Origin: Sporomusa sp. KB1
GTDB lineage: Bacteria > Bacillota > Negativicutes > Sporomusales > Sporomusaceae
Assembly (NCBI RefSeq): GCF_007830295.1
Contig: NZ_VLKC01000002.1
Span: forward strand, 1,734,513-1,798,512
Reading direction: 5' to 3'
Length of the DNA stretch: 64,000 nt
Numbering within the stretch: the first letter of the stretch is position 1; every line of letters starts with the position of its first letter. Made by a program: the position numbers and the translations under genes. The notes beneath the pieces were generated by a model, which saw nothing but the letters and a program-made list of their open reading frames with translations, searched no databases and was not told the DNA's origin. This document shows, in pieces, positions 11,348 through 45,053 of the stretch.

Positions 11348-11503
11348 TTACAAAATAATCATCATAATCAATACAATCAAAATAGCAATCGCTAGCCATA
11401 CTTGCCACTTTTCAAAATTATGGACAGCAGCGAAGCCATCTATAGCCCAGTTAGTTTTACGTCCGACATCATCAATCACATTTTTGATTTTTTCTTTATT
11501 CAT
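11348..11503 (-). CDS. 51-residue single-helix membrane protein
   Basis: The frame begins MNKEKIKNVIDDVGRK, continues through an amphipathic middle (NWAIDGFAAVHNFEKWQ) and ends in one strongly hydrophobic helix (residues about 34-51) at the very C-terminus. GGAGG lies 8 bases before the ATG. The architecture is a tail-anchored or small bitopic membrane protein. Family and function are unknown; a larger overlapping frame in the same place lacks such a start site. Confidence 0.65.
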   Translation of the reverse strand: MNKEKIKNVIDDVGRKTNWAIDGFAAVHNFEKWQVWLAIAILIVLIMMIIL

Positions 11504-11518
11504 AATTAAAACCTCCAT

Positions 11519-11623
11519 CTTATGTTACTTTATCATATGCGGCTCATGAGTCAGATTGTGTTATGTCATTAGCCCGAATTGTTGACAGTGTGTTACCCGC
11601 ATACTTTCGCTTAGTAACATAAG
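11519..11623. repeat. 105-bp inverted-repeat element
   Basis: Perfect 11-bp ends CTTATGTTACT / AGTAACATAAG are continued inward by CATATGCGG / CCGCATA. The whole non-coding spacer downstream of the binding-protein gene could fold into one long stem. It may be a miniature mobile element or a terminator-like structure. Confidence 0.5.
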
Positions 11624-11637
11624 AGGGAGGGACACTG

Positions 11638-12714: not shown

Positions 12715-12745
12715 TACACATAACCTTCTCGACGCAATAACCCCC

Positions 12746-14707: not shown

Positions 14708-14789
14708 GGTATTCCTTCTCCCCCATCTAAGATTAGTGTTAAGAAGCCCTATTGCTCATGATTTTACTTATACTGGATTGCCACTTGCT

Positions 14790-15998
14790 TTACGCTTTTC
14801 CAATAGCCAAATTCCCCCTCTCCGTAGACGAAGGCTTATTATGCAGTTGATCGCCACGATAGCTTACCAAAAACCAGTTATTCAATTTTTTAATCAAAGC
14901 CTCGATGTCATGTTCTTTTATATAATCCCAACCGAGCCACTTAAAGGTAGCGTCAATTGGTAATCTATTGCTTACATCCGGGTGAACGGAAGGAAAGTAC
15001 GCATTAGCGCAGATTTGCCCGACTTGCGGACCTGTTAAAAAATCGACCAACTCTTTGAACTTCTCGGCTTTGTTAGCCTTGACCATAAAAAAAAGCGGCG
15101 TTACCAAAGCGCCGTCTTCCGGCCAGACTATTTCAATAGTAGAGGTAGAACTAATGGTATGTGCAAAAAAATCCGGCATGATATAAATAGGCGGCAAATC
15201 CGTATTGCTACTCGCCAGGCCTTTGATCATTTGTGCTGAATGCGAACCGCTATGTATCGTCCGCCCCAAAGCAGCAATTCCAGCCTCACCATACTCCTTA
15301 TAAATGCTAAGTAATACTGCGTCACTGAACGACTCGCCACGGCTGTTTATCATGACTTTACGCTCGTACTCCGGTTTCAGTAAATCTCCCCATGTTTTCG
15401 GCATCGGTAGATCGCCAAGCCGTTTTCGATCAACTACCATTACCGAGATTCCAAGGCAGATTACATTATAAGGCCATTCCTGATCAACAATCCCAAGGTC
15501 AGCCAATTGCTTATTTACCACTTTCTGTGGTGCCGCGACATAAAGACCCTTGTTAACAAATTTGTTAACGAAATTTTCATTAAAAAAATGATAGCCTTTA
15601 GTTAGCACCAGATCTGGTGCTCTATCCATATCCTGATTATGCGGAATCTCGTCATTTTTTTGTATTGCCTGTAACAGCGGCTGTAATTTACGCTCTAATG
15701 GCCCCTTCAAGCCGCAGGGAATATGGATGTTAAAACTGCCAGACTTATTGCCACCCATGGAAGAAAATAGACTGTTATAGTAGGCTGTATCCTCAATTTT
15801 GTCCTTAATCAACTGCATGAAAGCTTCAATACCAATTTTTTTGGTGCGTAAGGCTGATTGCAGTTTCAAAATTGACCCCAGTTCATTTAGGACTTTTTCT
15901 TCAGCAAATAGGGCAAAACCATTGTTGATAAATACTTCCAGAGTTTCAGGATATTGTCTGACAATCTCCTTAATTGTGCATTCGAGCAGATTATCCAT
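14790..15998 (-). CDS. ScdA/DUF1858-like domain fused to a solute-binding-protein fold, no signal peptide
   Basis: This 402-residue protein starts with a domain of about 60 residues (IKEIVRQYPETLEVFINNGF) like the N-terminal ScdA/DUF542-DUF1858 group linked to iron-sulfur repair and redox metabolism. The remainder resembles periplasmic iron/spermidine binding proteins of the FutA/PotD type (TWGDLLKPEYERKVMINSRG). It lacks any signal peptide, so it should be cytosolic, which is odd for that fold. It lies between the ATPase and receptor genes and may handle the imported ligand inside the cell. A decayed paralogue lies at 18.0-18.4 kb. Confidence 0.75.
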   Translation of the reverse strand: MDNLLECTIKEIVRQYPETLEVFINNGFALFAEEKVLNELGSILKLQSALRTKKIGIEAFMQLIKDKIEDTAYYNSLFSSMGGNKSGSFNIHIPCGLKGPLERKLQPLLQAIQKNDEIPHNQDMDRAPDLVLTKGYHFFNENFVNKFVNKGLYVAAPQKVVNKQLADLGIVDQEWPYNVICLGISVMVVDRKRLGDLPMPKTWGDLLKPEYERKVMINSRGESFSDAVLLSIYKEYGEAGIAALGRTIHSGSHSAQMIKGLASSNTDLPPIYIMPDFFAHTISSTSTIEIVWPEDGALVTPLFFMVKANKAEKFKELVDFLTGPQVGQICANAYFPSVHPDVSNRLPIDATFKWLGWDYIKEHDIEALIKKLNNWFLVSYRGDQLHNKPSSTERGNLAIGKA

Positions 15999-16102
15999 AA
16001 TTCACCTCTACAACATATTGCATTATCATTTTCATCTTTTCTTTTGCATATCTTCAAAGACCCTTCGCCAAACAACTTACCTATTTTCGTATACTAGCCC
16101 AA

Positions 16103-16894
16103 TCAACCGCAATCTGCGGCAACCGGAATACAAACTCTTCGACCGTCATGGTTTTCCCCGATGCTGATTATTTGTACATCAACCCCGTAAACGGTTTTTA
16201 AGTAATCTTCAGTAATCACTTCCTCAGCAGTCCCAATGCGAAAGGCATTGCCCCTTTCAATTACTGCCACCTTCGATGCGCAGTAAAAGGCATCATTAGG
16301 GAAATGAGTTGTCATGATTACCCCCAAGTTTTCATTTCGCACCAGCTTTTTGATTTGATTCAATACCTTGATTTGATTTCCGAAATCAAGATTGGCCGTA
16401 GGTTCGTCCATAATCAAAAAAGCCGGCTGCTGCGCTAACGCCCTTGCAATCAGCACAAGTTGTCGTTCCCCACCGCTTATTTGCGTATAGATACGGTCTT
16501 TTAACTGCGCTATTCCAAGGGTTTGCAACGCCTCTTCGGCAATTTCCCTGTCCTGCCGGGTTGGTGATGAGAAAAATGACAAATGAGCTGTTCTTCCCAT
16601 TGTTACCACCTCAATGACCTTAAAGGGAAAAGGAGGATTATGCGCTTGCGGAACATAGCCCACCTTCCTGGCTAAATTCCGCCGCTCACAACGGCTGATG
16701 TCCTCTTCATCCAGAAGGATTTGTCCGGACTGCAGCTTAATAAAGCCTAACATTGCTTTAAAAAGTGTCGTCTTGCCAATACCGTTTGGCCCTAGAATAC
16801 ATAGCGACTCACCACATCTCACGGTAAGTGATAGGTCACTGATTACTGCCCTAGTGCCATAGCCACAGGAAACATTTTTTACCTCTAGTATCAT
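16103..16894 (-). CDS. Metal-chelate ABC transporter ATP-binding protein
   Basis: This 263-residue ATPase of the FecE/BtuD class has Walker A GPNGIGKTT, signature ISGGERQLV, Walker B FLIMDEP and an H-loop in MTTHFPNDA. It drives uptake through the permease encoded just upstream. The permease is probably homodimeric because only one permease gene is present. The gene starts 44 bp after the permease stop. Confidence 0.92.
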   Translation of the reverse strand: MILEVKNVSCGYGTRAVISDLSLTVRCGESLCILGPNGIGKTTLFKAMLGFIKLQSGQILLDEEDISRCERRNLARKVGYVPQAHNPPFPFKVIEVVTMGRTAHLSFFSSPTRQDREIAEEALQTLGIAQLKDRIYTQISGGERQLVLIARALAQQPAFLIMDEPTANLDFGNQIKVLNQIKKLVRNENLGVIMTTHFPNDAFYCASKVAVIERGNAFRIGTAEEVITEDYLKTVYGVDVQIISIGENHDGRRVCIPVAADCG

Positions 16895-23798: not shown

Positions 23799-24533
23799 TT
23801 ACTTTAAACGGTCTAAAGCAAGCAGCAAACCATGAATTAATGCCTGTGGACGTGGCGGGCAACCCGGAACATAGATATCAACAGGAATAATGCGATCAAC
23901 CGCGCCCCGAATAGCATAGCTCTCACCGAAAATCTGTCCACTAGCTGCACAAGCCCCTACAGCCATAACTAGCTTTGGATGCGGTGTAGCATCATAAGTC
24001 ATTTGCAGCGCTTGTGTTGAATTACGAGTAACAACACCGGTTACCATAAGTAAATCTGCATGCCGTGGTGAAGGTACAAAATCCACCCCATACTGCTGTA
24101 TATCATATATGGGATTACACAAATGATTCATCTCAAAATCACAAGCGTTACATGATCCGACATCTACATGTCTAACATGTAGAGAGCGGCCTAATAATGA
24201 CCGTATTTTACGCTTAAACTCAGATGCAGCTTCATCAGCAAGACCTGCGCCCAAAGTAGCTAATTTGTAATTATCGGTCTGCTTACAGCAGGCCGCTTCG
24301 CAATTTTCTACACAAAGGCCACAAAATACACAAGCTTTTTGATCGATACTAATTGATCCGGGAATAACTCTGATTGCCTTTGTTGGACAAACAGCCGCAC
24401 ATTTCTGGCAATCCTGGCAAGAGGCAGAGCTGTTGGCCACTACCTCACCCCGGAAACGCGGGGCTGGTAGTGCCGTATCCCAATTTTCAGTTACTGTCCC
24501 TGTGGAAATTATTTTACGCAATATATTCAACAT
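23799..24533 (-). CDS. HyfH-HyfI-type fusion: ferredoxin domain plus NuoB-like hydrogenase small subunit
   Basis: This protein of about 244 residues joins a two-cluster ferredoxin part (CQDCQKCAAVC and CVFCGLCVENC) to a NuoB/HycG-like small subunit with CNAC, GACAASG and PGCPPRPQ, which together ligate one 4Fe-4S cluster. In Hyc/Hyf complexes these are separate proteins linking the electron source to the active-site subunit. The start is the ATG at 24533 with AGGAGG nine bases upstream. It is the last gene of the operon. All iron-sulfur cysteines look intact even though the partner large subunit has lost nickel ligands. Confidence 0.88.
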   Translation of the reverse strand: MLNILRKIISTGTVTENWDTALPAPRFRGEVVANSSASCQDCQKCAAVCPTKAIRVIPGSISIDQKACVFCGLCVENCEAACCKQTDNYKLATLGAGLADEAASEFKRKIRSLLGRSLHVRHVDVGSCNACDFEMNHLCNPIYDIQQYGVDFVPSPRHADLLMVTGVVTRNSTQALQMTYDATPHPKLVMAVGACAASGQIFGESYAIRGAVDRIIPVDIYVPGCPPRPQALIHGLLLALDRLK

Positions 24534-24546
24534 GTGTCTCTTCCTC

Positions 24547-26055
24547 CTATCGGTCAAGGCAGGCATACGATAATTCATAGCTTTTATTAACCAGTGGAAA
24601 ATCCGGAATAATATTTCCAGGAGCTGCTACCGTAAGCGCCGGCCAGTTACAATATGCCGCGGCACGTACAAAAAGCCGGTAAATCGTATTATTTTCGCCT
24701 ACCATCAACCAATGAATACAATGTCCTTGTGACGACTCGCTCCAGCCAAAGCCACAACTATATGGTTTAATCTCAGGAATAGCAATGATAAGCGCTCCAT
24801 CAGGCATCTTGGCAATAATCTGACGTATCAGCTGCATAGTTTGATATACTTCATCTACCCTCACCCAAAGCCGGGCGGCTACATCGCCGGTCGTATATAC
24901 CGGAACCTCAAATTTTAGTTTCGAATAACAATCATATGGATAATCACGACGACTATCAATATCTACCCCTGAGGCCCGCGCTCCCACGCCTACCACGCTC
25001 AAATCCAGCGCTGCTTGGCGAGAGACAACCCCAGTTGTATTAACCCGATTCAAAAACGCGTCGTTTGTACGGAAAAGACCGATCATTTCCGTAAAATCCG
25101 GTTCAAGTACATCCAACAGATTGATAATTTCATCTGCCAGATTAGTAGTAATATCCTGCCTTACTCCACCGGGTACCACCATGCCCCGTAGAAAACGATT
25201 TCCGGTTACAGCTTCATTGACGCGCATAATGGCTTCTTTCATACGTGCTCCTGCCATAACCGCCACTGCAAAGCCCATACCAGCACACAAGTTGCCGATA
25301 TCACCAACATGATTATAAAGACGTTCCAATTCAGCAACAAGCGCTCTCATATACTGTGCCCTTTTAGGGACTTCAACCCCGGCCAGCGCTTCAATGGCAT
25401 GACAGTAGGACAGAGAATGCGCTACGCCACAAACACCCGAGATACGTTCAACCTGATAAAAGGCTTTTTCTAACGGCAATCCTTCAATGGCTTTCTCTAT
25501 CCCGCGATGAACAAAAAACATTTTGGCATCCAAACGCAGGATGGATTCACCAGCCTGACTGAAGCGAAAATGACCTGGTTCGATGATACCGGCATGAATA
25601 GGCCCTACCGGCACTTCAAATACGCCTTCACCTTCTACGCTATTCATATGCCAAGGCCTATTGGCCGTTGGCACCGGTGCAGTAACATCAAAATCCTTAC
25701 GTAACGGATAAATAGTATCCGGCCAGTTTTCGTGTAATACCAGCGCACGCAAATCTGGATGACCTATTGGTTTTAAGCCGAATAAATCATATATTTCCCG
25801 TTCATACCATGCTGCTGCCGATATATGGGGAGTTATGGAGGAAAACTCTAGTGCTCCGGTCGCTGCTAGCAGCGCTTTAATTACTCTAAAATCTTTCCCT
25901 ACAGCAAAAACACAATATATAGCATAGTTGCCGTGTAAGCCGCATTCGTCATTAGCAAACATAGCTATCAGTCGGTTTTTACCCTCTTCATAAATAGCCT
26001 CGGCAGCCTCTTGCAATTTAGACGCAGGAATAGTTACATATTCAACCATTTCCAC
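24547..26055 (-). CDS. HyfG/HycE-like large subunit with degenerate nickel site
   Basis: This 502-residue protein has an N-terminal NuoC-like domain (about 1-160, containing WYEREIYDLFGL) fused to a NuoD/[NiFe]-hydrogenase large-subunit domain. The first nickel motif reads RISGVCGVAHS where hydrogenases have RxCGxCxxxH. The second, near the C-terminus, reads YELSYACLDR instead of DPCxxC. So in each motif the first Cys is Ser and only the second remains. Nickel binding in the normal way looks impossible, and it may act like NuoD as a quinone-type or structural module. The start is GTG behind GGAGG. Confidence 0.88.
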   Translation of the reverse strand: MEMVEYVTIPASKLQEAAEAIYEEGKNRLIAMFANDECGLHGNYAIYCVFAVGKDFRVIKALLAATGALEFSSITPHISAAAWYEREIYDLFGLKPIGHPDLRALVLHENWPDTIYPLRKDFDVTAPVPTANRPWHMNSVEGEGVFEVPVGPIHAGIIEPGHFRFSQAGESILRLDAKMFFVHRGIEKAIEGLPLEKAFYQVERISGVCGVAHSLSYCHAIEALAGVEVPKRAQYMRALVAELERLYNHVGDIGNLCAGMGFAVAVMAGARMKEAIMRVNEAVTGNRFLRGMVVPGGVRQDITTNLADEIINLLDVLEPDFTEMIGLFRTNDAFLNRVNTTGVVSRQAALDLSVVGVGARASGVDIDSRRDYPYDCYSKLKFEVPVYTTGDVAARLWVRVDEVYQTMQLIRQIIAKMPDGALIIAIPEIKPYSCGFGWSESSQGHCIHWLMVGENNTIYRLFVRAAAYCNWPALTVAAPGNIIPDFPLVNKSYELSYACLDR

Positions 26056-26061
26056 TATTTG

Positions 26062-27525
26062 CTAACCTCCTAATACAATTTCAGCTGCCTGCACTAATAC
26101 GCTATTCACTACCGGCGGCAGGTATAGCCCCGCAACAACAATAACTACCAGCGAAAGTGTCATAGCTGTCATGGTTGTAAAAGACATACGGAAACGGTAT
26201 TGTTCGTTTGGTGCAGAGCCAAAACCCATTTTTAAACAATAGTACATCATGCCAGCAAAAATACCAGTGAGTAAAAACAACGTAATACTGCCAAGCAACC
26301 ACTGCTGATTTTCAAACATGGATAAAACAATATAGAACTTAGATGTAAAAATATTAAACGGAGGCGTGCCAGTAATAGCGAAAATGCCGATAACCAACAT
26401 CGTAGCCACCAGTGGCATAACCCGGGCAATACCATAAATTTGTTTAATATTTTTGGTTTTGTACTCCTGGGTAACTATGCCTGCCAGATAAAATAAGGAA
26501 GACTTTGCTATTGCATGATTGACAATATGCAGTAAAGCCGCATAAACAGCCAGCGGTGTACCAACACCCAGCCCTAATGTAATGATACCCATATGCTCGA
26601 CACTGGAATAGGCCAACAACCGTTTTACATCATGCTGTGTCAAAACAAAAGGAATAGCTATCGCGATTGACAAAATTCCCAATGCTAATAGCATATAGTG
26701 GGAAAATTCAACCCCAATTGCTCCCTGTACAATAATCGTATTACGTACCAAGGCATACAGTGCACAACTGAGCAGCGCTCCGGACAAAAGTCCGCTGACA
26801 GGTGAAGGTGCCTGACTATGCGCATCAGGCAACCAGGTATGCATCGGAGCCAATCCGGCTTTTGTGCCATAGCCAATAAGAATGAATATAAAAGCAATCT
26901 TCATGATAGAAGGATCCAGTTTTCCACTTATATTTTTGAGTGTAAGCCAATCCAGCGCTTGTCCGCCAGCACCTATGCTGACTTGAGCATAATACAATAT
27001 AATAGTGCCGAAGAGAGCTAAACAGATTCCGACTGTGCAAATCATAACATACTTCCAAGCCGCTTCCAGAGCATCGCGGTTAAAGTAAAACGCGACCAAT
27101 AATGCGGAGGCTAACGTTGTTCCTTCTACAGCCACCCACATCAAACCAAGGTTGCCCACAACAATTACGCTAATCATGGCAAAACTAAACAAATTTAATA
27201 GTGCATAATAGCGTGGCAGCATGGCTAGCGTTATGCTACCTTCATGCACTTCTTTTTCCATATACGATAAAGAAAACAGCGTGGCTGTAAAGGTCAATAA
27301 AGCTACCACAAATAATAGTACCGCACTTAAATGATCCACATAAAAATGCTCTGACCTAAACACGTTTTGCTGGGTAATACCGTAAATAATAACCATAAGA
27401 ACAGCGCTAGTCGCAGCACTTCCTAGAAAATTAATTCCTCTGATAACAGTCTGATTTCTTTGTAGTAACGTCAACAATCCTGTAACAACTGGTATTACTA
27501 ATGCAAGCAAGATTATCTCCTGCAT
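26062..27525 (-). CDS. HyfF-like antiporter-type membrane subunit
   Basis: This 487-residue polytopic protein is related to NuoM/N and MrpD, with about 13-14 helices. Conserved charged segments are visible around LIGYGTKAGLAPMHTWLPDAHSQAPSP and LTQHDVKRLLAYSSVEHMG, the broken-helix and lysine elements used in ion translocation. It lies four bases after HyfE, suggesting tight coupling. With HyfB it would provide two ion-pumping modules. Confidence 0.9.
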   Translation of the reverse strand: MQEIILLALVIPVVTGLLTLLQRNQTVIRGINFLGSAATSAVLMVIIYGITQQNVFRSEHFYVDHLSAVLLFVVALLTFTATLFSLSYMEKEVHEGSITLAMLPRYYALLNLFSFAMISVIVVGNLGLMWVAVEGTTLASALLVAFYFNRDALEAAWKYVMICTVGICLALFGTIILYYAQVSIGAGGQALDWLTLKNISGKLDPSIMKIAFIFILIGYGTKAGLAPMHTWLPDAHSQAPSPVSGLLSGALLSCALYALVRNTIIVQGAIGVEFSHYMLLALGILSIAIAIPFVLTQHDVKRLLAYSSVEHMGIITLGLGVGTPLAVYAALLHIVNHAIAKSSLFYLAGIVTQEYKTKNIKQIYGIARVMPLVATMLVIGIFAITGTPPFNIFTSKFYIVLSMFENQQWLLGSITLFLLTGIFAGMMYYCLKMGFGSAPNEQYRFRMSFTTMTAMTLSLVVIVVAGLYLPPVVNSVLVQAAEIVLGG

Positions 27526-27529
27526 ACTA

Positions 27530-28147
27530 TCACCCCTTTAACTTCTTGAGCAGGCCTGTATCAGTAGTAGCCAAGGAGAGTTTCAGTCGGTAAGTCAAGA
27601 TAACCAAAACAACAACTGCCACCAGCACGTCGAAGAATATCCCCAATTCAATGATTAACGGCAAACCTTGCGTGATAGATAAGCCCATCAAATACAGTCC
27701 ATTCTCCATGGTAATCAGACCAATAATCTGCAGCAGCGCTTGATTGCGGGTCATAATCAGCAACAGTCCAATAAAGGATAAAGAAATTGCAGCAGGCAGC
27801 GTAGATGCTGCAGCAAAGCCCGGCAACGCTTTACCAATCAAACCATATGCTAAAATGATGGCCAAAATAGCAGTAAAGGTACTGAAGTTTGGTTTTACAA
27901 TTTCACGTTCCTCATGTAAATAAGGCAATACCCGATATAAAGCGTACGGAATAAGTCCGACTTTGATTACGACTGTCAGCAAGGCGGCAATATACATATG
28001 AACTTGTCCAGTTTGAATTCCGGCAACAACGCAGGCGATAGCAACAATGACAGACTGCGCGCTAACAATATGAATGCCTAGCTTTAAGTTTGATACTCTT
28101 GTCAGTAAAATCGCAGCTGACAAAAGCAATACCGTTAATAGATCCAT
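27530..28147 (-). CDS. HyfE-like membrane subunit
   Basis: This 205-residue hydrophobic protein has about six helices. It matches HyfE, which is NuoK-like in its C-terminal half (MENGLYLMGLSITQGLPLIIELGIFFD). It forms part of the membrane arm joining the antiporter-like subunits to HyfC. Purine-rich GGGGG lies about ten bases before the ATG. Confidence 0.85.
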   Translation of the reverse strand: MDLLTVLLLSAAILLTRVSNLKLGIHIVSAQSVIVAIACVVAGIQTGQVHMYIAALLTVVIKVGLIPYALYRVLPYLHEEREIVKPNFSTFTAILAIILAYGLIGKALPGFAAASTLPAAISLSFIGLLLIMTRNQALLQIIGLITMENGLYLMGLSITQGLPLIIELGIFFDVLVAVVVLVILTYRLKLSLATTDTGLLKKLKG

Positions 28148-28166
28148 TGCTCTTCTTACCCCCTTA

Positions 28167-29072
28167 TTACTGAGCCACTAGTGCCAGCAATGACAAGCAT
28201 CCCGCTGCAACCATAAGGCCTGGCACCCTGAATAGGCGCATTTTATTAGTGCTGGATTCTATGCAGGCAAGTAAAACCGCCATGATAAGAACCTTAGTAA
28301 ACATGGATACTGCAGACATTACATTGGAATCAAAGCCTGGAAGGTCCCAGGGAATAAAGAGCTTGATCAGTAACAAAATAAATACTAATTGTTTAATTGC
28401 AGCAGCCCAAAAAATTAAACCCACAGATCTACCGGAATACTCCAGCACCATGCCTTCATGGATCATGGTCAATTCTAAATGGGTATCCGGATTGTCGACC
28501 GGGATACGCCCTGTTTCAGCTACCGTAATAATCAAAAACGCAATCGCCGCCAGAACTGTTGATAATGAAATAGGCTCACTGGCTGCGTTACTGGCCATAG
28601 CAGACAATACTGTCGAATTGGCACTGATTGCCACTGTGAATAGGGTAATCATCAACGCAGGCTCCACAAGGACACTAACAAACATTTCCCGCGAACCACC
28701 CATTCCTCCGAATGAACTGCCAGCATCAAGCGATGCAATAGCCAGAAAAAATCTCCCCAGAGCCAATAGGTATACTAAAATAAACAAGTTATCAAACTGC
28801 CCATTAGTCTCAGTAAAAATAGTCGGCACCAACGCCGCTGCACCAATCGCTGTTGCAAAATATATATAGGGTGCAAAATGGAATACCCATGATACAGTCG
28901 GAGATACCACACTGTCTTTGGCGAGGAATTTAACAAAATCAAAATACGGCTGGAAATAACCCGGACCCCTCCGGCTCTGCAAACGTCCTTTTGTATTTTT
29001 AACTATACCTTGAACTAAGGGCGCCAGTATGACCAAAGCTATAACTTGAATAATAGTTGCCGTAATAGACAT
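28167..29072 (-). CDS. HyfC/HycD-like (NuoH-family) membrane subunit
   Basis: This 301-residue NuoH-family protein has about eight helices. Family loops are visible: SRRGPGYFQPYFDFVKFLAKD near residue 33, and ETGRIPVDNPDTHLELTMIHEGM near residue 185, which carries acidic residues involved in proton transfer. It anchors the peripheral hydrogenase arm to the membrane. AAGGTGG precedes the ATG. Confidence 0.92.
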   Translation of the reverse strand: MSITATIIQVIALVILAPLVQGIVKNTKGRLQSRRGPGYFQPYFDFVKFLAKDSVVSPTVSWVFHFAPYIYFATAIGAAALVPTIFTETNGQFDNLFILVYLLALGRFFLAIASLDAGSSFGGMGGSREMFVSVLVEPALMITLFTVAISANSTVLSAMASNAASEPISLSTVLAAIAFLIITVAETGRIPVDNPDTHLELTMIHEGMVLEYSGRSVGLIFWAAAIKQLVFILLLIKLFIPWDLPGFDSNVMSAVSMFTKVLIMAVLLACIESSTNKMRLFRVPGLMVAAGCLSLLALVAQ

Positions 29073-29076
29073 ATGG

Positions 29077-31107
29077 TCACCACCTTGTCCCTATAATCAA
29101 CACCACTGCTGTAACTGCCATGATATAACCGATGTAAAGCTGCAAACTTCCAGCCTGAACCCGTTTGAAGCTACTGGCTAGATTAAGAATTCCATTAGCT
29201 AGCGGTTGATACAGATATTCATTAATAAAGTAACTAACCTGTACCTTTAGCGACATCTTAACGCCATGATACGGATTTTGCGCTGCGTCGTCTGTCGTCA
29301 GCCGGGCAACCGGATGCAAAATATCACCAAATGCGCGACGGATAGGTTCAGCAAATCCAGTTGCCGTATATTCCATGCGAGCTGTAGGTATTTGACCACA
29401 AGTCCAGGTTTCATTGGTTTCCACTTTGGGAGTTCCTGCAGCACGGGCAAATAAGAAAGCTACAAGTAGACAAACGGCAATTATAATTACAACGATTGGC
29501 ATAGTAATCAGACCAAAACTACCTTGCTGAGCTTGGAATGCTACTGCATACCATTGGCTGGTTTGAAAAAGATTATCTGCCGCTAAACCAGCATGCCCTG
29601 CTACCACATTTTTAAGAATATGAATCATCCATTGAGGCCATACACCAGCAGCAACACACACCACTGCGAGCATTGCCATCCCTAGTATCATGGAGCCGGG
29701 AACTTCTTTTGCCTGCTCCGCCTGCTTGCTGCGAGGCATTGCTAAAAAAGTCACGCCGAAGGCTTTAACAAAACAAGCGGCAGCTAAAGCCCCTGTCAAC
29801 CCAAGTAAAGCTATTAGGGCAACTGCCCCCAGCTTACCAGTTAAGCCAACAATAGCTTTGGGTAAAAAAAACAAGGCTTGAAAAGTTAGCCATTCGCTAA
29901 CAAAACCATTAAGCGGCGGCAGCGCTGAAATAGCGGCCGCACCAATCAAAAAACAAAAAGCAGTATAGGGCATCTTCTTGATTAAGCCACCCAGCTGTTC
30001 GATATCTTTGGTATGGGTAGCAGACATTACCGCCCCTGCTCCCATAAATAACAAGGATTTAAAAACAGCGTGGTTAAACACATGATAAAGACTGGCAGCC
30101 CATGCCAAGCCGCCAAGAGTTGGATAATTATTGCTCATAAACACCATACCAGCACCGATACCAAGCAGTATAATGCCAATATTTTCTACACTGTGATAGG
30201 CTAAAAGACGTTTAAGATCATGTTCCATAAGCGCATATAATACCCCAAGAACGCAGGATACAATTCCTAAACCTAAGATTAATTCTCCCCACCACGCAGG
30301 ACCTACCCCTAAGAAATCAAGGAAAAAGCGCGCCATGCCATAAATTGCTGTTTTAATCATAATGCCTGACATCATGGCTGAAACGTGACTTGGAGCCGCC
30401 GGATGGGCTTCTGGCAACCAAATATGCAGCGGCATAACACCCGCTTTGGTACCAAAACCAATCAAAGCACACAGAAACACTACATTTTTCATCGGTTCAG
30501 TAAGTGCGCTTCCTTTAAGAAGTTCAAAATCCAAACTATTGGCTGCAGCAGCAAGTAGCAAGAATGCTATTACAATAAAAGCAGTACCAATATTAGTCAT
30601 TAAAATGTATATGTAAGCGGCATTCGTATTGGATGTTTTTTCATATTCATGATTAACCAATAAAAATGACACCACCGTCATTAGTTCCCATACAATAACA
30701 AAAGCGACTACTTGGCTAATCGTCAATACTAAAACCATGGATAGCAAAAATGCATTAAAGAGTGACGCTAAGACTGCTAACCGCCGTCCATAATACTCCC
30801 GGCTGTATCCGATCGCATACACACTGGCAGCAGTACCTACTATTCCAAAAGCTAACAGGAAATAGGCCGCTAAATAATCGATTCTGACTTTAATAAGACC
30901 CAGAGGAGCTCCTAAAGCAACAGCTATAGTCTGTTCTCCTGTCTGTAGCGCCACTACCGCGCAGCCTACAGTTGCCAGACACCCTAATGCAGCAAAACCA
31001 TGCGATAGATAATTGGTGGCTTTGGGATTGCTTTGAGCGACAAACGCAGAAAATATACCTAACGCAAACAAACATAGTATCGCAAAATATAATTGATCGA
31101 TAAGCAC
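29077..31107 (-). CDS. HyfB/HycC-like antiporter-type membrane subunit
   Basis: This subunit of about 676 residues, related to NuoL/MrpA, has about 15-16 helices. Ion-path motifs include IGFGTKAGVMPLHIWLPEAHPAAPS and LMEHDLKRLLAYHSVEN. A C-terminal extension contains the ETWTCGQIPTARMEYTATGF region also found in HycC. The GTG at 31107 is preferred because GAGG sits eight bases upstream; another GTG three codons earlier overlaps that site. It directly follows the [FeFe] hydrogenase gene. Confidence 0.9.
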   Translation of the reverse strand: MLIDQLYFAILCLFALGIFSAFVAQSNPKATNYLSHGFAALGCLATVGCAVVALQTGEQTIAVALGAPLGLIKVRIDYLAAYFLLAFGIVGTAASVYAIGYSREYYGRRLAVLASLFNAFLLSMVLVLTISQVVAFVIVWELMTVVSFLLVNHEYEKTSNTNAAYIYILMTNIGTAFIVIAFLLLAAAANSLDFELLKGSALTEPMKNVVFLCALIGFGTKAGVMPLHIWLPEAHPAAPSHVSAMMSGIMIKTAIYGMARFFLDFLGVGPAWWGELILGLGIVSCVLGVLYALMEHDLKRLLAYHSVENIGIILLGIGAGMVFMSNNYPTLGGLAWAASLYHVFNHAVFKSLLFMGAGAVMSATHTKDIEQLGGLIKKMPYTAFCFLIGAAAISALPPLNGFVSEWLTFQALFFLPKAIVGLTGKLGAVALIALLGLTGALAAACFVKAFGVTFLAMPRSKQAEQAKEVPGSMILGMAMLAVVCVAAGVWPQWMIHILKNVVAGHAGLAADNLFQTSQWYAVAFQAQQGSFGLITMPIVVIIIAVCLLVAFLFARAAGTPKVETNETWTCGQIPTARMEYTATGFAEPIRRAFGDILHPVARLTTDDAAQNPYHGVKMSLKVQVSYFINEYLYQPLANGILNLASSFKRVQAGSLQLYIGYIMAVTAVVLIIGTRW

Positions 31108-31183
31108 AAATTTCACCTCTAAACCAACATGGATTTATAGTATAATCAGGTTGCGCACTAGGTCCCCATACCTCACACACAAA

Positions 31184-32566
31184 TCATATTTCACACCACC
31201 CCCGTGGATTGTATTTTGTATGAAGCAGCTGTTGGATAACATCCTCATCCAATAATTCTTCATAAATCTCTTGGATTTCTTGTCGATTATGCAAATTCCT
31301 ATATTCTATACTTTGCTCCTGCACCTCAGCAGTAAAGGTTCGGTTAGAATACACGATTACTTCGTCGTCAGGCATGATTATTTTCGGTTGTCCACCACCA
31401 TTAATACATCCGCCAGGGCAGGCCATAACTTCCACGAAATGAAAATCTGCTTTTCCAGCTTTAATTGCTGCCAAAATGGACACAACATTCTTCAAACCGG
31501 CAACTACTGCCACTTTTATTGTCCGATCTCCGATTTTAATTTCTGACTTTCTCACGCCTTCGTCACCCCCGACGAATTTATGGTTGTCATCAGAAATCTC
31601 TTGCTTTGCAAGCAGCTCGTATCCAGTACGCAAAGATACCTCCATGACATCCTCAGCAGCACTAAAAATAGTGCCATCTCCAGAGTAAATCCTCAACGGC
31701 TTATCAAATTCTTTTTCAGGTAAGTCCTTTAAATCAATGCCCGCATCCTTAATTAATTGTGCAAGTTCCCGGGTAGTAATAACAACATCCACATCACGAT
31801 AGCCACTATCTCTCATTTCAGGACGTTCACATTCAAACTTCTTACCCGTACAAGGCACAACTGAAACACTATAAACTTTTGCAGCATCCACACCATCAAT
31901 TTCAGCACCATATGTCTTATATAACGTGCCCGCCATTTGCTGTGGAGATTTACAAGATGACAGATGTGAGATCAACTCCGGATAATCCTGCTCAATAAAT
32001 TTTACCCAGGCAGGACAAAAAGAAGTAAACATTGGCAGTAAGCCGCCTCCAATAATGCGCTCAAGAAGTTCACTACTTTCTTCCATAATTGTGAGCTCAG
32101 TCGAGAAATACGTGTCATAAACTCGATTAAAACCTAATTCCCTTAGGATAGCTGCCATTTTACCTGGTGTTAAACTTCCCAATGGCATGTCAAACTCTTC
32201 AGCAATAGCCACACGAACAGCTGGCGCACATTGCACCATCGTAAGAAGGTTATGATTCGCTAAGACCTCTTTTACAGTTGGCGCATGACCTGCATAGTAA
32301 GCTGCAAACAAGGGTTCTTTAACAGAAGGAAGCATATTACGTTCCTGCAGCTTTTTTCCTCGTAAAGCAAGATTCTCATCAAGCACAGAAGCATAGGCAG
32401 TGCAAACCTGCACACATTGACCACACATAATACAGCGCTCTCTATTAATCATTTGAGGGCTTCCCTTTTTGCCTTCTATAGCATCTACAGGACAAATAGC
32501 TGCACAACGCTTACAACCGATACATAACTCTTTATCAATATTGATAATCCCTTGCATCTTGGTCAT
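31184..32566 (-). CDS. HydA-like [FeFe] hydrogenase with altered active-site surroundings
   Basis: This 460-residue protein has an N-terminal two-cluster ferredoxin domain (CIGCKRCAAIC, CIMCGQCVQVC) and an H-cluster domain. The cluster cysteines are present in TSFCPAW, VVPCTGKK and EVMACPGGCINGGGQP. The Cys that normally precedes the ligand in TSCCP (proton relay) is Phe, the Met before PC is Val, and the usual GATGGVMEA loop reads SAAEDVMEV. It lies between focA and the Hyf-type membrane genes, so it is probably the catalytic or electron-input partner of that complex. The start is the ATG at 32566. Confidence 0.88.
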   Translation of the reverse strand: MTKMQGIINIDKELCIGCKRCAAICPVDAIEGKKGSPQMINRERCIMCGQCVQVCTAYASVLDENLALRGKKLQERNMLPSVKEPLFAAYYAGHAPTVKEVLANHNLLTMVQCAPAVRVAIAEEFDMPLGSLTPGKMAAILRELGFNRVYDTYFSTELTIMEESSELLERIIGGGLLPMFTSFCPAWVKFIEQDYPELISHLSSCKSPQQMAGTLYKTYGAEIDGVDAAKVYSVSVVPCTGKKFECERPEMRDSGYRDVDVVITTRELAQLIKDAGIDLKDLPEKEFDKPLRIYSGDGTIFSAAEDVMEVSLRTGYELLAKQEISDDNHKFVGGDEGVRKSEIKIGDRTIKVAVVAGLKNVVSILAAIKAGKADFHFVEVMACPGGCINGGGQPKIIMPDDEVIVYSNRTFTAEVQEQSIEYRNLHNRQEIQEIYEELLDEDVIQQLLHTKYNPRGWCEI

Positions 32567-32620
32567 CAAAATAAGCGTCTCCTATCGTATACAAAATGCT
32601 AATGCATTCCCAGAGTTATC

Positions 32621-33487
32621 CTATTTCTTCATAGCAGCTAAAACACCACTCGTGCAACCAACAGATGACGTAGTGCGCATGTAACTATACCAATAAAACA
32701 TAGCCACAAAAATACCAAGACCAACAATATTCCCCAATACGGCAGGTATCCAATTATTCATAATGGTTGTTTCGATTGTCAGAGTATCTATCTTCACTCC
32801 TAATTTGCTTGCCTCTACCACTGCCGGCATAGTTTTTGCAAATAACCCAGCAGGAATATAGTACATATTTGCAACACTATGCTCAAAACCACTCATGACA
32901 AAAGTCATAACCGGGAGATAGCAAGTTGCCACTTTACTAATAATATCTTTGGAAGAAAAACTCATCCATACGGCAAGACCAACCAGCCAGTTACAAAGTA
33001 TGCCGCGGAAAAACACTTCACCCCAAGTAAGATTCACTTTAGCAACAGCAGTTGCTAACGTCGCTGCACCAAGCAAATTATTATTAAATTTAAACAGTCC
33101 AGTCATATACATAAGCCAGGCTACCAGTATTCCACCCACCATATTACCCAGTAATACAATCGTCCAGTTTCTCATAACATCATAAAAACTAATCTTTCTG
33201 GAAAAAAGTGCGGTCAGCATGAGTACATTGCCGGTAAACAATTCCGCTCCGCAGATAATAACATACATAAGACCTACAGAAAAAACTGAACCTGTGATAA
33301 ATCGTTGCCAGCCTGCACCAAGAGAAGTAAGATCATGAGCTGCCATAGTTGAGCCTTCAGCACCAAATGCAATAAAACAACCAGCAAGTATCCCTAGTAT
33401 GAATAGTTTGCCAGCAGGCATTGTTGCCCTTTTCACCTGCGCTTCCATACAATTTTGAGCAATTTCCGGGGGTGTACAATAATTCAT
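32621..33487 (-). CDS. FocA/FdhC-family formate channel
   Basis: This 288-residue formate/nitrite transporter-family protein has six predicted helices. The family signatures LAGCFIAFGAEGSTMAAHD (near residue 33) and the VMSGFEHSVANMYYIPAG region with the pore histidine are visible. It would move formate or a related anion across the inner membrane. It is first in the hydrogenase operon, with AGGAGG seven bases before the ATG and a -24/-12 promoter about 95 bp further up. No formate dehydrogenase is encoded with it. Confidence 0.9.
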   Translation of the reverse strand: MNYCTPPEIAQNCMEAQVKRATMPAGKLFILGILAGCFIAFGAEGSTMAAHDLTSLGAGWQRFITGSVFSVGLMYVIICGAELFTGNVLMLTALFSRKISFYDVMRNWTIVLLGNMVGGILVAWLMYMTGLFKFNNNLLGAATLATAVAKVNLTWGEVFFRGILCNWLVGLAVWMSFSSKDIISKVATCYLPVMTFVMSGFEHSVANMYYIPAGLFAKTMPAVVEASKLGVKIDTLTIETTIMNNWIPAVLGNIVGLGIFVAMFYWYSYMRTTSSVGCTSGVLAAMKK

Positions 33488-33580: not shown

Positions 33581-33596
33581 GCAAAAAGCATGCCAG
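33581..33596 (-). promoter_or_regulatory. Sigma-54 promoter of the focA-hydrogenase operon
   Basis: On the minus strand TGGCAT-GCTTT-TTGC matches the -24/-12 consensus with exact spacing. It overlaps a GCATGCC/GGCATGC hairpin. Expected transcription start is near 33570. Confidence 0.75.
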
Positions 33597-33757
33597 CAAG
33601 GCATGCTTTTTTTGCTTTTACTATCCAGGTTTTTAAAGATAAACCGTACACTATCAGACTATTCAAGGTTCATAGCCGATATTTATTTTTTATCACTACT
33701 TATTTTTTACATAAATTATTGTAATATTCATAAATAATTAGTTTAATTAAAACATTT

Positions 33758-33807
33758 AGTTATTGCAGACCCTGCAATAACTGCAGGCTTTTTTTGCACG
33801 GTCTGCA
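33758..33807 (-). promoter_or_regulatory. Paired 14-bp activator sites upstream of the focA operon
   Basis: TGCAGACCCTGCAA (33764-33777, within a perfect 11-bp palindrome) and its inverted relative TGCAGACCGTGCAA (33794-33807, read on the minus strand) have centres 30 bp apart and lie 165-225 bp upstream of the -24/-12 element. This fits enhancer sites for the neighbouring sigma-54 response regulator. The first palindrome could also act as terminator of the regulator gene. Confidence 0.55.
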
Positions 33808-33838: not shown

Positions 33839-35317
33839 CTATGTTTCTGATCGCTTTTTTTTCATCTTTTCAAGCCGGTAATATAGTGTTCGTACTGCAA
33901 TCCCAAGATAATTAGCAGCCTTAGTTTTATTTCCGCCACACTTTTCTAATGCTTCTTCCACCATACTATCGACACGATCTTGTAAAGCAAAGTTATCCGA
34001 TTGCGCTTCCAGCTTCTTTTGCGAACCATCGAAGGCGGATTCTGCTTTTGTCGCTCCATTTGAAGTTTTATTGTATCTATTATTAATATTACTTAAATGT
34101 TCTATTTTAAGTTCCTCTTCATCATACATGAAGGAAACCCATTCCATCACATTTCTAAGTTCACGAACATTACCCGGCCATGGATAATGTAAAAGAAACT
34201 CAGCCGCTGAATTACTTATACCCGCAAAGTGCTTTCCGCGCCGCTGCGCAAAATCTTGCAAAAACATTAGTGATAAGGGAAGTATATCCTCCTGCCGTTC
34301 GCGCAGCGGCGGTATAATAATTTGTCCAACTTTAAGCCGGTAGTACAAATCTGTTCTAAATAAACCCTGCTCAATACGTTTTTCAAAATCCACATTTGTT
34401 GCGCAAATAATTCTTAAATCAGTTTTTATTTTCCTTAAACCACCGACCCGGTAAAAACTTTTTTCCTCCAGTACTCGCAATAACTTAGGCTGTAATTCAA
34501 TCGGAATTTCTGCAATCTCATCAAGAAACAACGTTCCTCCCATGGCCATATCCAGTTTACCCTTACTGCCACGTGACGTTCCGCCTGTAAAAGAACCAGC
34601 TTCATAGCCAAACAATTCACTTTCAAACAAACTAGGTGTTATAGCCGTACAATTAATATCAATAAATGGACCGGGATTTTCCAGCTTGCCATAATGCACC
34701 ATTCTAGCAATAATCTCTTTTCCTACACCAGTTTCCCCTTGTATAAGAACAGGGAGTGAGCGATCAGTGTGATATTTCTCAGCTTGCTGAACAATATTTT
34801 TCATTTTATTGGAAAATACACCAACATGACCTATTCCGGCCTGCTCTGCAATAATCTTTTTTAATTGTTCTAACTGACGCTCGGTATCTTTTGTAGCACT
34901 CTTTACTTTCTCGTCAAAATGCTGTACCAATTCTTTATTCTCGTTTAATAAAAACTGGTGTTCTTCAACCCGATTTAAAACTGCTTTTAATTCCTGCACA
35001 TTAATTGGCTTTGTCAGATAATCATAGGCTCCGACTCGTAATGCTCCAATAGTGAGGGCAATATCGATAAATCCTGTATATAAAACAAGGTCAGCTTCCG
35101 GACTACATTTTAGTGCCTTAATATCTCGTATTAAATCAATTCCTGACATGCCGCCCATCTTTATATCAGACAACACCATCTCATACCTATTTCTTTTATA
35201 GGTTTCAAGAGCCTCTTCACCAGAAGAACACTCATCAACGTGATGACCAAGCAATAGTAAATAATCAGCCAAAAAAGACCTGCTTTCCTTTTCATCATCG
35301 ACAAGTAAAATACGCAT
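33839..35317 (-). CDS. Sigma-54-dependent response regulator (NtrC family)
   Basis: This 492-residue protein has a receiver domain (phospho-acceptor Asp in VLSDIKMGG, about residue 52), a short coiled linker and an AAA+ domain with Walker A GETGVGKE. The sigma-54 contact loop reads GSFTGG instead of GAFTGA. A Fis-type helix-turn-helix follows (NKTKAANYLGIAVRTLYYRLEKM). It lies 16 bp downstream of the kinase gene. It probably activates the adjacent focA-hydrogenase operon, which has a -24/-12 promoter and paired dyads. Confidence 0.92.
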   Translation of the reverse strand: MRILLVDDEKESRSFLADYLLLLGHHVDECSSGEEALETYKRNRYEMVLSDIKMGGMSGIDLIRDIKALKCSPEADLVLYTGFIDIALTIGALRVGAYDYLTKPINVQELKAVLNRVEEHQFLLNENKELVQHFDEKVKSATKDTERQLEQLKKIIAEQAGIGHVGVFSNKMKNIVQQAEKYHTDRSLPVLIQGETGVGKEIIARMVHYGKLENPGPFIDINCTAITPSLFESELFGYEAGSFTGGTSRGSKGKLDMAMGGTLFLDEIAEIPIELQPKLLRVLEEKSFYRVGGLRKIKTDLRIICATNVDFEKRIEQGLFRTDLYYRLKVGQIIIPPLRERQEDILPLSLMFLQDFAQRRGKHFAGISNSAAEFLLHYPWPGNVRELRNVMEWVSFMYDEEELKIEHLSNINNRYNKTSNGATKAESAFDGSQKKLEAQSDNFALQDRVDSMVEEALEKCGGNKTKAANYLGIAVRTLYYRLEKMKKKRSET

Positions 35318-35333: not shown

Positions 35334-37448
35334 TTATTCTGCGTATACAGGAAATGACACCTTTATTTTCGCGCCGCCACGAGAATTATTCCCAACACTA
35401 ATAGACCCATTGCTGGCAATAACAATGGACTGAATTATCGATAAACCAAGCCCCATAGAATCCCCGGATTTGGTTGAAAAAAACGGTTCAAAAATTCTTT
35501 CTTTCATAGCTTCATTAATACCAGGACCATTATCTCTTACTTCCAGGTATACTTTTTCGTCATCATTCCAGGTGCAAATAGATATTTTTCTTTGGTTTGA
35601 AGAAGCAGCATCTAAAGCCTGCATGGCATTCATCAGTAAATTGAGTAATACTTCCTCAAAACGAATAGGCGCACCATAAACAAAAGGTAAATTGGATGCT
35701 AAGTATTGATTAACTTGAATATGGCGCGAAATAAGCTGATTTCCTACCAAGGATAATGCCTTTTCGACGATATCATTTAAATTACAAGGTGTATAATCGT
35801 AATTTTGACTGTTACGCAGAAAAGAGCGCAGATGATTCACTATATTATCAATTCTATCCACCTGCTGAGAAATATTTGAAACATTTTTAATAACTTCTCC
35901 ACTTGGCATATCACCTTTTGACTGATAATGCAACAAAACGGTTTCTGACAAAAGACGAATTGCATTGAGTGGCTGATTTATTTCATGTGCTATACCGCCG
36001 CCAATAATGGCCAGTGTTGTAACCCTCGCAGCACGTTCAATAGCTTCTCTAGCTTCTGCCACTCTGATTTGAGCCTCTTTTTCGACAGTTATATCCCGTC
36101 CCACTGATTGATATTCGATGACCTCACCCAACTCATTGAATATTGCATGGTTATTCCATTGAAGCCAACAATTACTATTATTAGTTTCAATTTTGTATTC
36201 TGACATTGCAACCGGGTGTTCAGGACTAAGGCCGTCAAAAAGACGTAAGATAGCATCCCGATTCGCCGGTGGTACAAAGTTTATAAAATTTCGGCCAATT
36301 ATATCATCCATACTTTTACTAAAATAACGGCAAAACGCGCTATTAACAAAAGTCAGTGTGCCATCTGGAAGAAAACGGCGGATTAAATCCACCTGATCTT
36401 CTACAACTGCACGATAACGGGCTTCACTTTCTTTTAACTGTTGCTCTATTTGCTTTTGGGCAGTAATATCCCGCCCCACTGACTGAAACTCAAGTAATTT
36501 ACCACTTTCATCAAAAATAGCTCTATTTACCCACTGCTGCCAACGTACTTCTCCATCTGGTTTGACAAATTTCCGCTCGGACATAGCAACCGGGTTGTCC
36601 ACATGCAATGAAAATAACTGTTCTTTAAAAATCTCACGTTCTTCAGCAGGAATAAGTAAAATAACATTTTTCCCAAGCAGTTCTTCCATCGACTTATCAA
36701 ACCAATTACATAATGCTCCATTTACAAATGTTAAGGTGCCATCAGGACGAAAACGACGAATTAGCTCTATCTGGTCCTCTATAATCGCGCGATAACGTGC
36801 TTCGCTTTCTTGCAAAGCCTGTTCACGGGCAACACTGCGAGAAACCAAAAAGGAAATGATCATTGCCAGAATAATTACTATTATATTGACAACAACGAGA
36901 ATTATCTTCGAATGCACAGCATTTTGAGCATATTTTTCTTGTTCTTGCCTTACATACTCTTTAGTAGCGCTAATTATAGCTTCCGTAGCAGCCATAGCCT
37001 CTTTATAAGGCTGCCCGGCTTGAGCCATGTACATAGCGACATCCTCTAGCTTATTCGCCTGCTTGGCGGCCATAGACTTTTCTGCAATTTCTTCATAGGA
37101 TGATTTTTCTTTTTTTACGATAATAAGATATGCTTTTGAATTTTCGGTTCTAAGATTACTTTCCAACCAATGTATCCGTTCATTAGCCTTTGCCTTATAA
37201 TCATTATAAATCGGAATATCATTGGGATCGCCAGTAAAGTTGAACCGGCGCATAACAACACCCTCATTTGCAATATCTGCCGCCGTCCCCTGCACCATCT
37301 CCCTTACATCAATATTGACTTTGCTGAATTCTTGGTAAGATGAAGTTATTTCGCCAATCTTCCAGTATGTAAAACAGCTTATAACAATAATGAGCGTTAA
37401 GAGGAAGAAAAAGCCGATGTTTATTTTTTTCCCTACAGTCCATTTCAT
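35334..37448 (-). CDS. Membrane sensor histidine kinase with two PAS domains
   Basis: This 704-residue kinase has a membrane helix at about 11-32, a periplasmic four-helix-bundle sensor (about 35-185) and a second helix (about 186-208). Two tandem PAS domains both end in QSVGRDIT. The HisKA box is IAHEINQPLNAIRLLSE and the HATPase domain has NLLMNAMQAL and DNGPGI, with DSMGLGLSI as a further glycine box. It is predicted to phosphorylate the downstream sigma-54 regulator. The ligand is unknown; formate or redox state is plausible from context. Confidence 0.92.
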   Translation of the reverse strand: MKWTVGKKINIGFFFLLTLIIVISCFTYWKIGEITSSYQEFSKVNIDVREMVQGTAADIANEGVVMRRFNFTGDPNDIPIYNDYKAKANERIHWLESNLRTENSKAYLIIVKKEKSSYEEIAEKSMAAKQANKLEDVAMYMAQAGQPYKEAMAATEAIISATKEYVRQEQEKYAQNAVHSKIILVVVNIIVIILAMIISFLVSRSVAREQALQESEARYRAIIEDQIELIRRFRPDGTLTFVNGALCNWFDKSMEELLGKNVILLIPAEEREIFKEQLFSLHVDNPVAMSERKFVKPDGEVRWQQWVNRAIFDESGKLLEFQSVGRDITAQKQIEQQLKESEARYRAVVEDQVDLIRRFLPDGTLTFVNSAFCRYFSKSMDDIIGRNFINFVPPANRDAILRLFDGLSPEHPVAMSEYKIETNNSNCWLQWNNHAIFNELGEVIEYQSVGRDITVEKEAQIRVAEAREAIERAARVTTLAIIGGGIAHEINQPLNAIRLLSETVLLHYQSKGDMPSGEVIKNVSNISQQVDRIDNIVNHLRSFLRNSQNYDYTPCNLNDIVEKALSLVGNQLISRHIQVNQYLASNLPFVYGAPIRFEEVLLNLLMNAMQALDAASSNQRKISICTWNDDEKVYLEVRDNGPGINEAMKERIFEPFFSTKSGDSMGLGLSIIQSIVIASNGSISVGNNSRGGAKIKVSFPVYAE

Positions 37449-42045: not shown

Positions 42046-42480
42046 TTATTTAGGTGTAAACAATACCATTTTGGGCTTTCTTGCCATTTTTTCAGCCAGT
42101 TCTTTAACAGGGCCATAACTCATTACCAGTGATTGGCAATGCTGTACGCAACTAGGTATCTTGCCCTCAGCGGTTCGGTCCTTACACAGATCGCACAGTG
42201 AGGTGGGGAAAGGAACATAATTCAAATCCCATTTGCCATCAGCCATCTTGCGAGGTCCATCTTCCAGTAGCTTAAGACCGTATTGATTGGGACCAAGATT
42301 TAACTCTTTGATGCAGGCAACTTCACAAGCGTGGCAGCCTGTGCAATATTCGTAGTCAATTAACAGACCATTTCCAGAGGTCTCCTCTGATTTTAGAAGG
42401 CGTTCCAAACCCTCTCTGGCTTGGGGAAACGCGGCTGCTTTTCCTTTGGTCTCTTTATTCTGGCAGTTGAGCTCTGACAT
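42046..42480 (-). CDS. Ferredoxin-type electron-transfer subunit of the molybdoenzyme
   Basis: This protein of about 144 residues has two cysteine groups: CTGCHACEVAC, and CDLCKDRTAEGKIPSCVQHC, typical of short DmsB/NrfC/PhsB-like subunits with about two 4Fe-4S clusters. It should shuttle electrons to or from the molybdopterin subunit. The ATG at 42480 is chosen because AGGAGG lies eight bases upstream; it overlaps the end of the catalytic gene by 26 bp, indicating translational coupling. No signal peptide. Confidence 0.88.
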   Translation of the reverse strand: MSELNCQNKETKGKAAAFPQAREGLERLLKSEETSGNGLLIDYEYCTGCHACEVACIKELNLGPNQYGLKLLEDGPRKMADGKWDLNYVPFPTSLCDLCKDRTAEGKIPSCVQHCQSLVMSYGPVKELAEKMARKPKMVLFTPK

Positions 42481-44830: not shown

Positions 44831-44906
44831 TTAGCTTCCTCCTTTGAAAATTTAGTTTTTCAACTAATTAATTATTGTGGCTATCTTTTACTTTGGATGC
44901 CACCTC

Positions 44907-45016: not shown

Positions 45017-45053
45017 CCGTTAAGCGCCTCTAATTCGCCACACAAATCTGGCT

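Follow-up and report, generated by a model that had tools for sequence, protein, structure and literature searches.

A Hyf-type gene cluster of Sporomusa sp. KB1 with an apparently dismantled nickel site and an adjoining [FeFe] hydrogenase gene

What might a Hyf-type membrane complex do once its large subunit has lost two of the cysteines that should hold nickel, and what is the gene of an [FeFe] hydrogenase doing directly upstream of it? These questions are raised by a locus in a 64-kb stretch of DNA from Sporomusa sp. KB1 (contig NZ_VLKC01000002.1, positions 1,734,513 to 1,798,512; hereafter the window, whose numbering is used throughout), in which focA, hydA and hyfBCEFGI form one run at 23799-33487, all genes lying on the minus strand. 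A sequence-only reading of this DNA had placed HyfB, C, E and F, a HyfG-like large subunit, a ferredoxin-HyfI fusion, a HydA-like protein and FocA in a single run, and both the open reading frames (ORFs), every one of them intact, and the family assignments agree. The explanation favoured here, with moderate confidence, is that the [NiFe] site was retired once and its function taken over by an [FeFe] module of the hydrogen-dependent CO2 reductase (HDCR) type, the window cluster being a reduced derivative whose operon is probably driven by sigma-54.

The nickel site of HyfG

The HyfG-like large subunit (24547..26055), which comprises the 30 kDa and 49 kDa domains, can be aligned over almost its whole length with HycE of E. 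coli (7z0s_E; 319.7 bits, residues 7-502), and the RVCGIC and DPCYSC motifs of HycE fall on RISGVC and ELSYAC, the first Cys of each pair being replaced by Ser and the second kept. The four NiFe ligand positions are therefore held not by four Cys but by Ser206, Cys209, Ser496 and Cys499, and Gln443 stands at the canopy Arg position. The Ser-for-Cys exchange in both nickel motifs, to which the sequence-only reading had drawn attention, is thus confirmed by alignment, and it recurs throughout a clade. In a comparison of 38 HyfG rows (5 Ser-type and 33 Cys-type, one of the latter duplicating another; matches below 200 bits were dropped, as was L010 for duplicating L039, and a single gene underlies L057_11753 and L035), both Ser residues are found in 5/5 Ser-clade proteins and in 0/33 Cys-clade rows, all of which have Cys at the four positions. 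The Ser-type rows, from the window, a metagenome-assembled genome (MAG; G001/L039), G006, G015, and a Solidesulfovibrio MAG (G380/L040), make up one side of a branch with a support of 100/99 in the tree. All five also carry Gln at the canopy Arg position (32 Arg and 1 Lys in the 33 Cys-clade rows), and at six more HyfG positions, including Thr182, Ser267, and Ser465, the residue of nearly all Cys rows is absent from every Ser row. The Solidesulfovibrio protein has additionally lost a third nickel Cys, with Ala at the Cys209 position (RISGIA). The window protein ends in LDR directly after the second motif; the Cys-type relatives that were read do likewise, so this ending is uninformative alone.

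A published structure of formate hydrogenlyase (FHL) places the canopy Arg and a terminal nickel Cys within the active site and the associated proton path (PMC9474812), and it is because of these roles that the HyfG changes are read as an orderly dismantling. The Ser residues are not considered chance, given their distribution between the supported clade and the Cys rows and a ratio of nonsynonymous to synonymous substitution (dN/dS) of 0.10 for HyfG between the window and G001, its closest relative (0.16 for HyfI). Sequence error was rejected as their origin, as five members in two phyla carry them; contamination is likewise an unlikely source of the Solidesulfovibrio copy, whose contig has a GC content of 67.6% against 43-51% in the Negativicutes loci. 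The comparison thus supports a fixed mode of dismantling for the clade's NiFe site, in which the terminal Cys became Ser and the canopy Arg became Gln.

The genome of G015, which is 99% complete and carries the complete cluster, is informative in this regard. Within the NiFe large-subunit family it yields a single match, which is the Ser-type HyfG, and HypD, the only Hyp protein searched for, gave no match there, while HydF was found. With neither a HypD match nor another NiFe large subunit, G015 is not expected to build the NiFe cofactor, and its Hyf complex can hardly carry one. HypD was detected in the window genome, G006, and G380, which hold other NiFe enzymes, and G001, a 58%-complete MAG, is uninformative on this point. 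The proposal that the ancestral [NiFe] site had been retired is thereby supported for the clade as a whole, through the paired Ser residues, the Arg-to-Gln change, and the missing HypD match of G015.

Further members were sought in several surveys, each listing matches down to its own E-value limit. Ser-type HyfG was found in 4 of 380 genomes from the class of the window (1e-200), in the window itself only among 398 genomes drawn evenly from its phylum (1e-180), and in one genome each among those drawn evenly from the class (347 genomes, 1e-120), family (199 genomes, 1e-100), and phylum (395 genomes, 1e-100) of G380. The last survey also returned 12 other matches, 37-40% identical, of which nine had their motifs read, all nine being of an Ehr-like type. 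In the plasmid collection 73/73 records fell below 60% identity, E. coli being among the matches listed. A contig-level scan of genomes gave two loci, L039 and L040, and HyfG fragments in G004 (L118) and G018 (L119) proved to be Cys-type.

HydA and its linkage to the hyf genes

The hydA gene (31184..32569) encodes a 461-aa protein whose best solved relative is HydA2 of the Thermoanaerobacter kivui HDCR (593 bits over nearly the full length; next best, 321 bits). The eight ferredoxin Cys are kept, as are the four cubane ligands of the H-cluster that characterize HydA2 (Cys185, Cys240, Cys384, and Cys388). It is preceded by the first gene of the run, which encodes a FocA-family formate channel (32621..33487), and is separated from hyfB by a spacer of 67 bases.

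A survey of focA-hydA-hyf synteny, which the sequence-only reading had called for, shows hydA upstream of hyf in 4/4 Ser-clade loci having upstream flank, some of which have a small hycB-like gene in between. In the fifth, G001, the contig ends inside hyfG, and fdhF-fdhF-hycB-hydA-hycB directly follows hyfI, the first fdhF being in broken frames in this MAG. By comparison, HydA, FdhF, HycB, and FocA were found in 0/21 Cys-clade regions at E <= 1e-10 and 60 bits, of which 18 extend 6.4 kb or more upstream and L048, L052, and L057 only 0.8-1.6 kb, with less than 3 kb downstream in L055, L057, L058, and L060. L118, whose hyf genes are in broken frames, and L119 do not belong to these 21 regions, and neither shows HydA. 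Among the Cys-type loci, one lies in the window genome itself (L044; G000:C1:3750818-3752308), where a second Hyf complex with a HyfG 62% identical to that of the window is encoded without adjoining HydA or formate dehydrogenase; in L118 (G004:C73), from a relative in the same genus, it is HyfB and HyfG of the Cys-type cluster that are in broken frames.

The linkage is seen in two phyla, and the order focA-hycB-hydA-hycB-hyfBCEFGI-fdhD is common to G015 and the Solidesulfovibrio contig. Past fdhD, G015 continues with hycB-fdhF and the Solidesulfovibrio contig with fdhF-hycB-hycB-fdhF; the fdhF of G015 and both fdhF of G380 contain an in-frame TGA (selenocysteine). The HDCR gene set, fdhF and hycB together with hydA, is present in G015, G380, and G001. 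The formate link envisaged earlier is supported in two loci of different phyla, in which fdhF and hycB are part of the same run, but is indirect for the window, where it depends on FocA only; the formate dehydrogenase genes of the window genome sit elsewhere. The suggestion that an [FeFe] unit had been plugged in fares similarly: for the clade it is favoured by the linkage and the HDCR-like gene set, whereas for the window it is weakened by the condition of HydA described below.

Arm, wire, and competing explanations

The membrane arm and proximal-cluster subunit of a Hyf-type complex are all present in the window, namely HyfB (29077..31116; antiporter-like), HyfC (28167..29072; NuoH/HycD-like), HyfE (27530..28147; membrane subunit) and HyfF (26062..27525; antiporter-like), together with HyfI (23799..24578), in which a domain with two [4Fe-4S] clusters is joined to the proximal-cluster subunit. 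Their conservation was judged by comparison with the Cys-clade regions, 18 of the 21 being used (all except L057, L059, and L060). All 12 Fe-S Cys of HyfI, eight in the ferredoxin domain and four at the proximal cluster, are kept in 5/5 Ser rows, the latter as Cys143, Cys146, Cys210, and Cys240 with CxxC spacing in the window. The ferredoxin-HyfI fusion itself is present as previously described but is not a special feature of this locus, since the eight ferredoxin Cys are invariant in 18/18 Cys-clade HyfI examined. In HyfC, 25/25 Lys, Arg, Asp, Glu, and His positions invariant in the Cys clade are retained in 4/4 Ser rows; elsewhere, besides the HyfF and HyfB changes given below, charged positions that are invariant in the Cys clade are departed from at HyfE R135 and at two non-ligand positions in HyfI. 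The arm and the Fe-S wire look functional, and the catalytic pocket of HyfG does not.

According to the favoured explanation, the HyfG site would have been retired a single time. In the complete form, represented by G015 and the Solidesulfovibrio MAG, FocA, FdhF, HycB-like proteins, and HydA2 would constitute a module interconverting formate/CO2 and H+/H2, which may be held at the membrane through docking on the ferredoxin domain of HyfI, may exchange electrons with the HyfI proximal cluster, and may thereby be coupled to ion pumping by the HyfB/C/E/F arm, in which nearly all ion-path residues are kept. In the window, HydA would most likely act as the point of electron entry, its H2 turnover being severely impaired, with the Hyf arm remaining under purifying selection. 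With H2 chemistry placed in HydA, the arm of such a complex might be driven by charging of the proximal cluster, by a HyfG pocket with a new substrate, or might act as a mere anchor.

That impairment is suggested by the proton-relay motif, which reads TSFCP in the window, with Phe184 in place of the proton-relay Cys, and TSCCP in G006, G015, L040, and G001 (in G006 the Met of the second motif is Thr instead). In a saturation study of Clostridium acetobutylicum HydA, only Asp is reported to replace this Cys with high activity, other residues falling below the 14% detection limit, and for Ala, Ser, and Leu variants made before it the study quotes 6-17% or no activity (PMC3485046). The protein has also changed faster than its counterpart in G006: with G015 as the outgroup, 64 private changes are counted in the window and 37 in G006 (chi2 7.2), while the same test gives chi2 <= 2.3, and no acceleration, for FocA and the six Hyf subunits. 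Slow natural enzymes of the sensory [FeFe] type do without the proton-relay Cys, and its loss need not mean zero activity. The sequence-only reading, which spoke of an [FeFe] unit, had overlooked the Phe; a working [FeFe] hydrogenase is not supported in the window, and H2 chemistry there is doubtful. Both inherited hydrogenase sites thus look impaired, and the window cluster looks like a reduced derivative of the clade.

Several observations weigh against the favoured explanation. The window HydA breaks 18 of 129 positions that are invariant in 20 other HydA2 proteins, each of which breaks 0-7 of 111-118. (None of the 18 precedes residue 127, but decay limited to the H domain is not shown, as the ferredoxin domain, at 58% identity to G006, is less alike than the H domain, at 66%; the breaks at 17 further invariant positions make a sequence error behind Phe184 unlikely.) The window locus holds neither fdhF nor hycB, and the G006 cluster has no fdhF and only one short hycB-like gene, its HDCR being encoded elsewhere. 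The Ser loci share one origin, and their linkage does not represent many independent events; moreover, only five Ser-type members were found, one of them in the 58%-complete MAG G001. The arm departs from the Cys clade at several residues invariant there: HyfF R362 is lost in 4/4 Ser rows, HyfF K396 is replaced by Glu in G015, and the window has Met for HyfB K460. The Solidesulfovibrio locus contains no -24/-12 promoter match above chance. Lastly, gene linkage falls short of proving one complex, and if H2 is turned over in HydA, electrons could bypass the HyfG pocket, leaving the drive of the arm unexplained.

The last difficulty would be removed if the vacated HyfG pocket had gained a new substrate, such as menaquinone or another acceptor, yielding a respiratory pump fed by formate, H2, or ferredoxin, much as complex I and the sulfane reductase MBS arose from hydrogenases. 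This somewhat unlikely alternative would account for the keeping of a pump-like arm, and it fits the conservation of both the arm and the electron path to the proximal cluster despite the loss of the nickel site, the invariance of a Glu in the beta1-beta2 loop (E159) in 27/27 aligned rows, and the precedent of MBS, which is described as having likewise lost two nickel Cys and kept two (PMC7684303). The residues themselves speak against it: Ile158 and Gly207 align with the quinone-binding His38 and Tyr87 of Thermus thermophilus Nqo4, the canopy Arg is Gln (non-protonatable changes at this position are reported to impair complex I; PMC9474812), and the proximal cluster keeps the CxxC spacing of the membrane-bound hydrogenase MBH, unlike that described for complex I or MBS (PMC7684303). 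Chemistry of the complex I or MBS kind is hence unsupported by residues, although it is retained as a rival. A bolder formulation, in which the clade encodes a NiFe-free, hydrogenase-derived pump that is fed by an HDCR-type module and uses the HyfG pocket for a new acceptor, and in which the window complex, with neither site working, would have become a complex I-like machine with a new function, independently of MBS, Ehr, and complex I, is rather unlikely. Not every alternative considered here is incompatible with the favoured explanation, and the probabilities assigned to all of them add up to more than unity.

It is also conceivable, if unlikely, that HydA and Hyf are mere operon neighbours, a soluble HDCR-like enzyme being encoded beside an independent nickel-free Hyf complex. 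HDCR is indeed described as a soluble complex (PMC6288185), and in several genomes of the class hydA2 occurs with hycB apart from hyf. Nevertheless, in the regions seen, HydA2 stands beside Ser-type HyfG in 5/5 cases and beside the Cys type in 0/21, hydA and hyfB are close together in the window, and the gene order is kept across phyla. Decay of the window cluster, with HydA heading for loss and the Hyf arm a remnant, is quite improbable, for although the broken invariant positions, the accelerated change of HydA, and the lack of fdhF and hycB would suit it, the ORFs are all intact, the seven other genes tested are unaccelerated, dN/dS is low in HyfG and HyfI, and the Fe-S Cys of HydA and a promoter-like element are kept.

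Promoter region, neighbouring genes, and known systems

The promoter-like element is TGGCATGCTTTTTGC (33581-33595, minus strand), a perfect -24/-12 element of the sigma-54 type located 94 bases upstream of the focA start and within an inverted repeat (33581..33615) for which an intrinsic terminator is the alternative reading. L041 has the identical element before its focA and L042 a version differing by one base, so that 3/3 Negativicutes loci with that flank carry it in near-identical form. Perfect matches to the pattern are rare, numbering five in the window, but those having at most one mismatch do not exceed chance there (30 against 22.9 expected). The motif TGCAGACYRTGCA (33795..33807, minus strand), a possible activator site also upstream of focA, was spotted by eye, without statistics, in the same three loci. 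Next on the minus strand are the genes of an NtrC-type sigma-54 response regulator (33839..35317) and a PAS-domain histidine kinase (35334..37448), both of which adjoin the run in L041 as well (75% and 74%, respectively). Transcription of the operon probably depends on a sigma-54 activator; sigma-54 control is also a feature of E. coli FHL.

Two other regions of the window may be mentioned. The stretch 42455-49205 encodes a sigma-54 activator along with a molybdopterin oxidoreductase and a CaiB-like CoA-transferase, which score below the cut-offs of the Fdh-alpha model and of the best-fitting model, L-carnitine CoA-transferase, respectively; perfect -24/-12-like matches stand nearby at 45001, 46907, 49307, and 50095. 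A probable uptake region occupies 5652-16894, with genes for two TonB-dependent receptors, an ABC ATPase, a periplasmic binding protein, and an extracellular solute-binding protein.

The pieces of the proposed complex are known from FHL, the Moorella Fdh-Ech, soluble HDCR, and nickel-less MBS; the combination of HydA2 with a nickel-less Hyf arm appears to be new, in that no description of it was found in open-licence papers, which is a weak negative. The Ehr-type complexes, to which we presume that nine matches from the phylum of G380 (L129-L137) belong, resemble the Ser-type clade in their nickel-less, Hyf-like large subunits, where Ser fills the two terminal positions, and differ in being 37-40% identical, in having lost all four Cys, and in keeping the canopy Arg; membership of the Ser-type clade in this group was rejected on identity and Cys pattern. 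Most of the Ehr-like large subunits carry the motifs RVSGDSTVAH and NQSYSGHD. HydA, FdhF, HycB, and FocA were found in 0/9 of the Ehr-like regions (L138-L146), only six of which have at least 2.9 kb upstream.

E. coli FHL and the Fdh-Ech of Moorella thermoacetica, an [NiFe] complex predicted from the order focA-fdhB-fdhA-hycB-ech (PMC13040438), resemble the present system in their Hyf/Hyc-type arm and, with respect to the complete relatives, in the formate channel and FdhF/HycB genes of the run; unlike it, they have a four-Cys [NiFe] site, which here appears dismantled, with an [FeFe] HydA2 gene in the operon. If the favoured explanation holds, the hydrogenase chemistry of FHL would have been swapped from NiFe to FeFe while the ion-pumping arm was retained, and the complete clusters would be a candidate nickel-independent formate/H2 route. 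HDCR, a putative example of which has been reported from S. sphaeroides (PMC12456013), shares the HydA2-type hydrogenase and, with G015, G380, and G001, the HycB-like proteins and FdhF; it is described as soluble and without a Hyf arm (PMC6288185), whereas here HydA2 is tied to hyf genes and the window has neither fdhF nor hycB.

MBS and complex I are, according to the literature on this superfamily, Group 4 relatives that lost nickel Cys and kept an ion-pumping arm (PMC7684303). The clade described here differs from them in its hydrogenase-like proximal Cys pattern, in place of the shortened three-Cys coordination given for MBS (PMC7684303), and in the absence of the quinone-binding His and Tyr. 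It would represent a recent and independent loss of the NiFe site, with close Cys-type relatives available for comparison, one of them in the same genome, and could provide a direct test of whether members of the complex I superfamily can pump only with chemistry in the large-subunit pocket or need no more than the movement of charge along the Fe-S wire.

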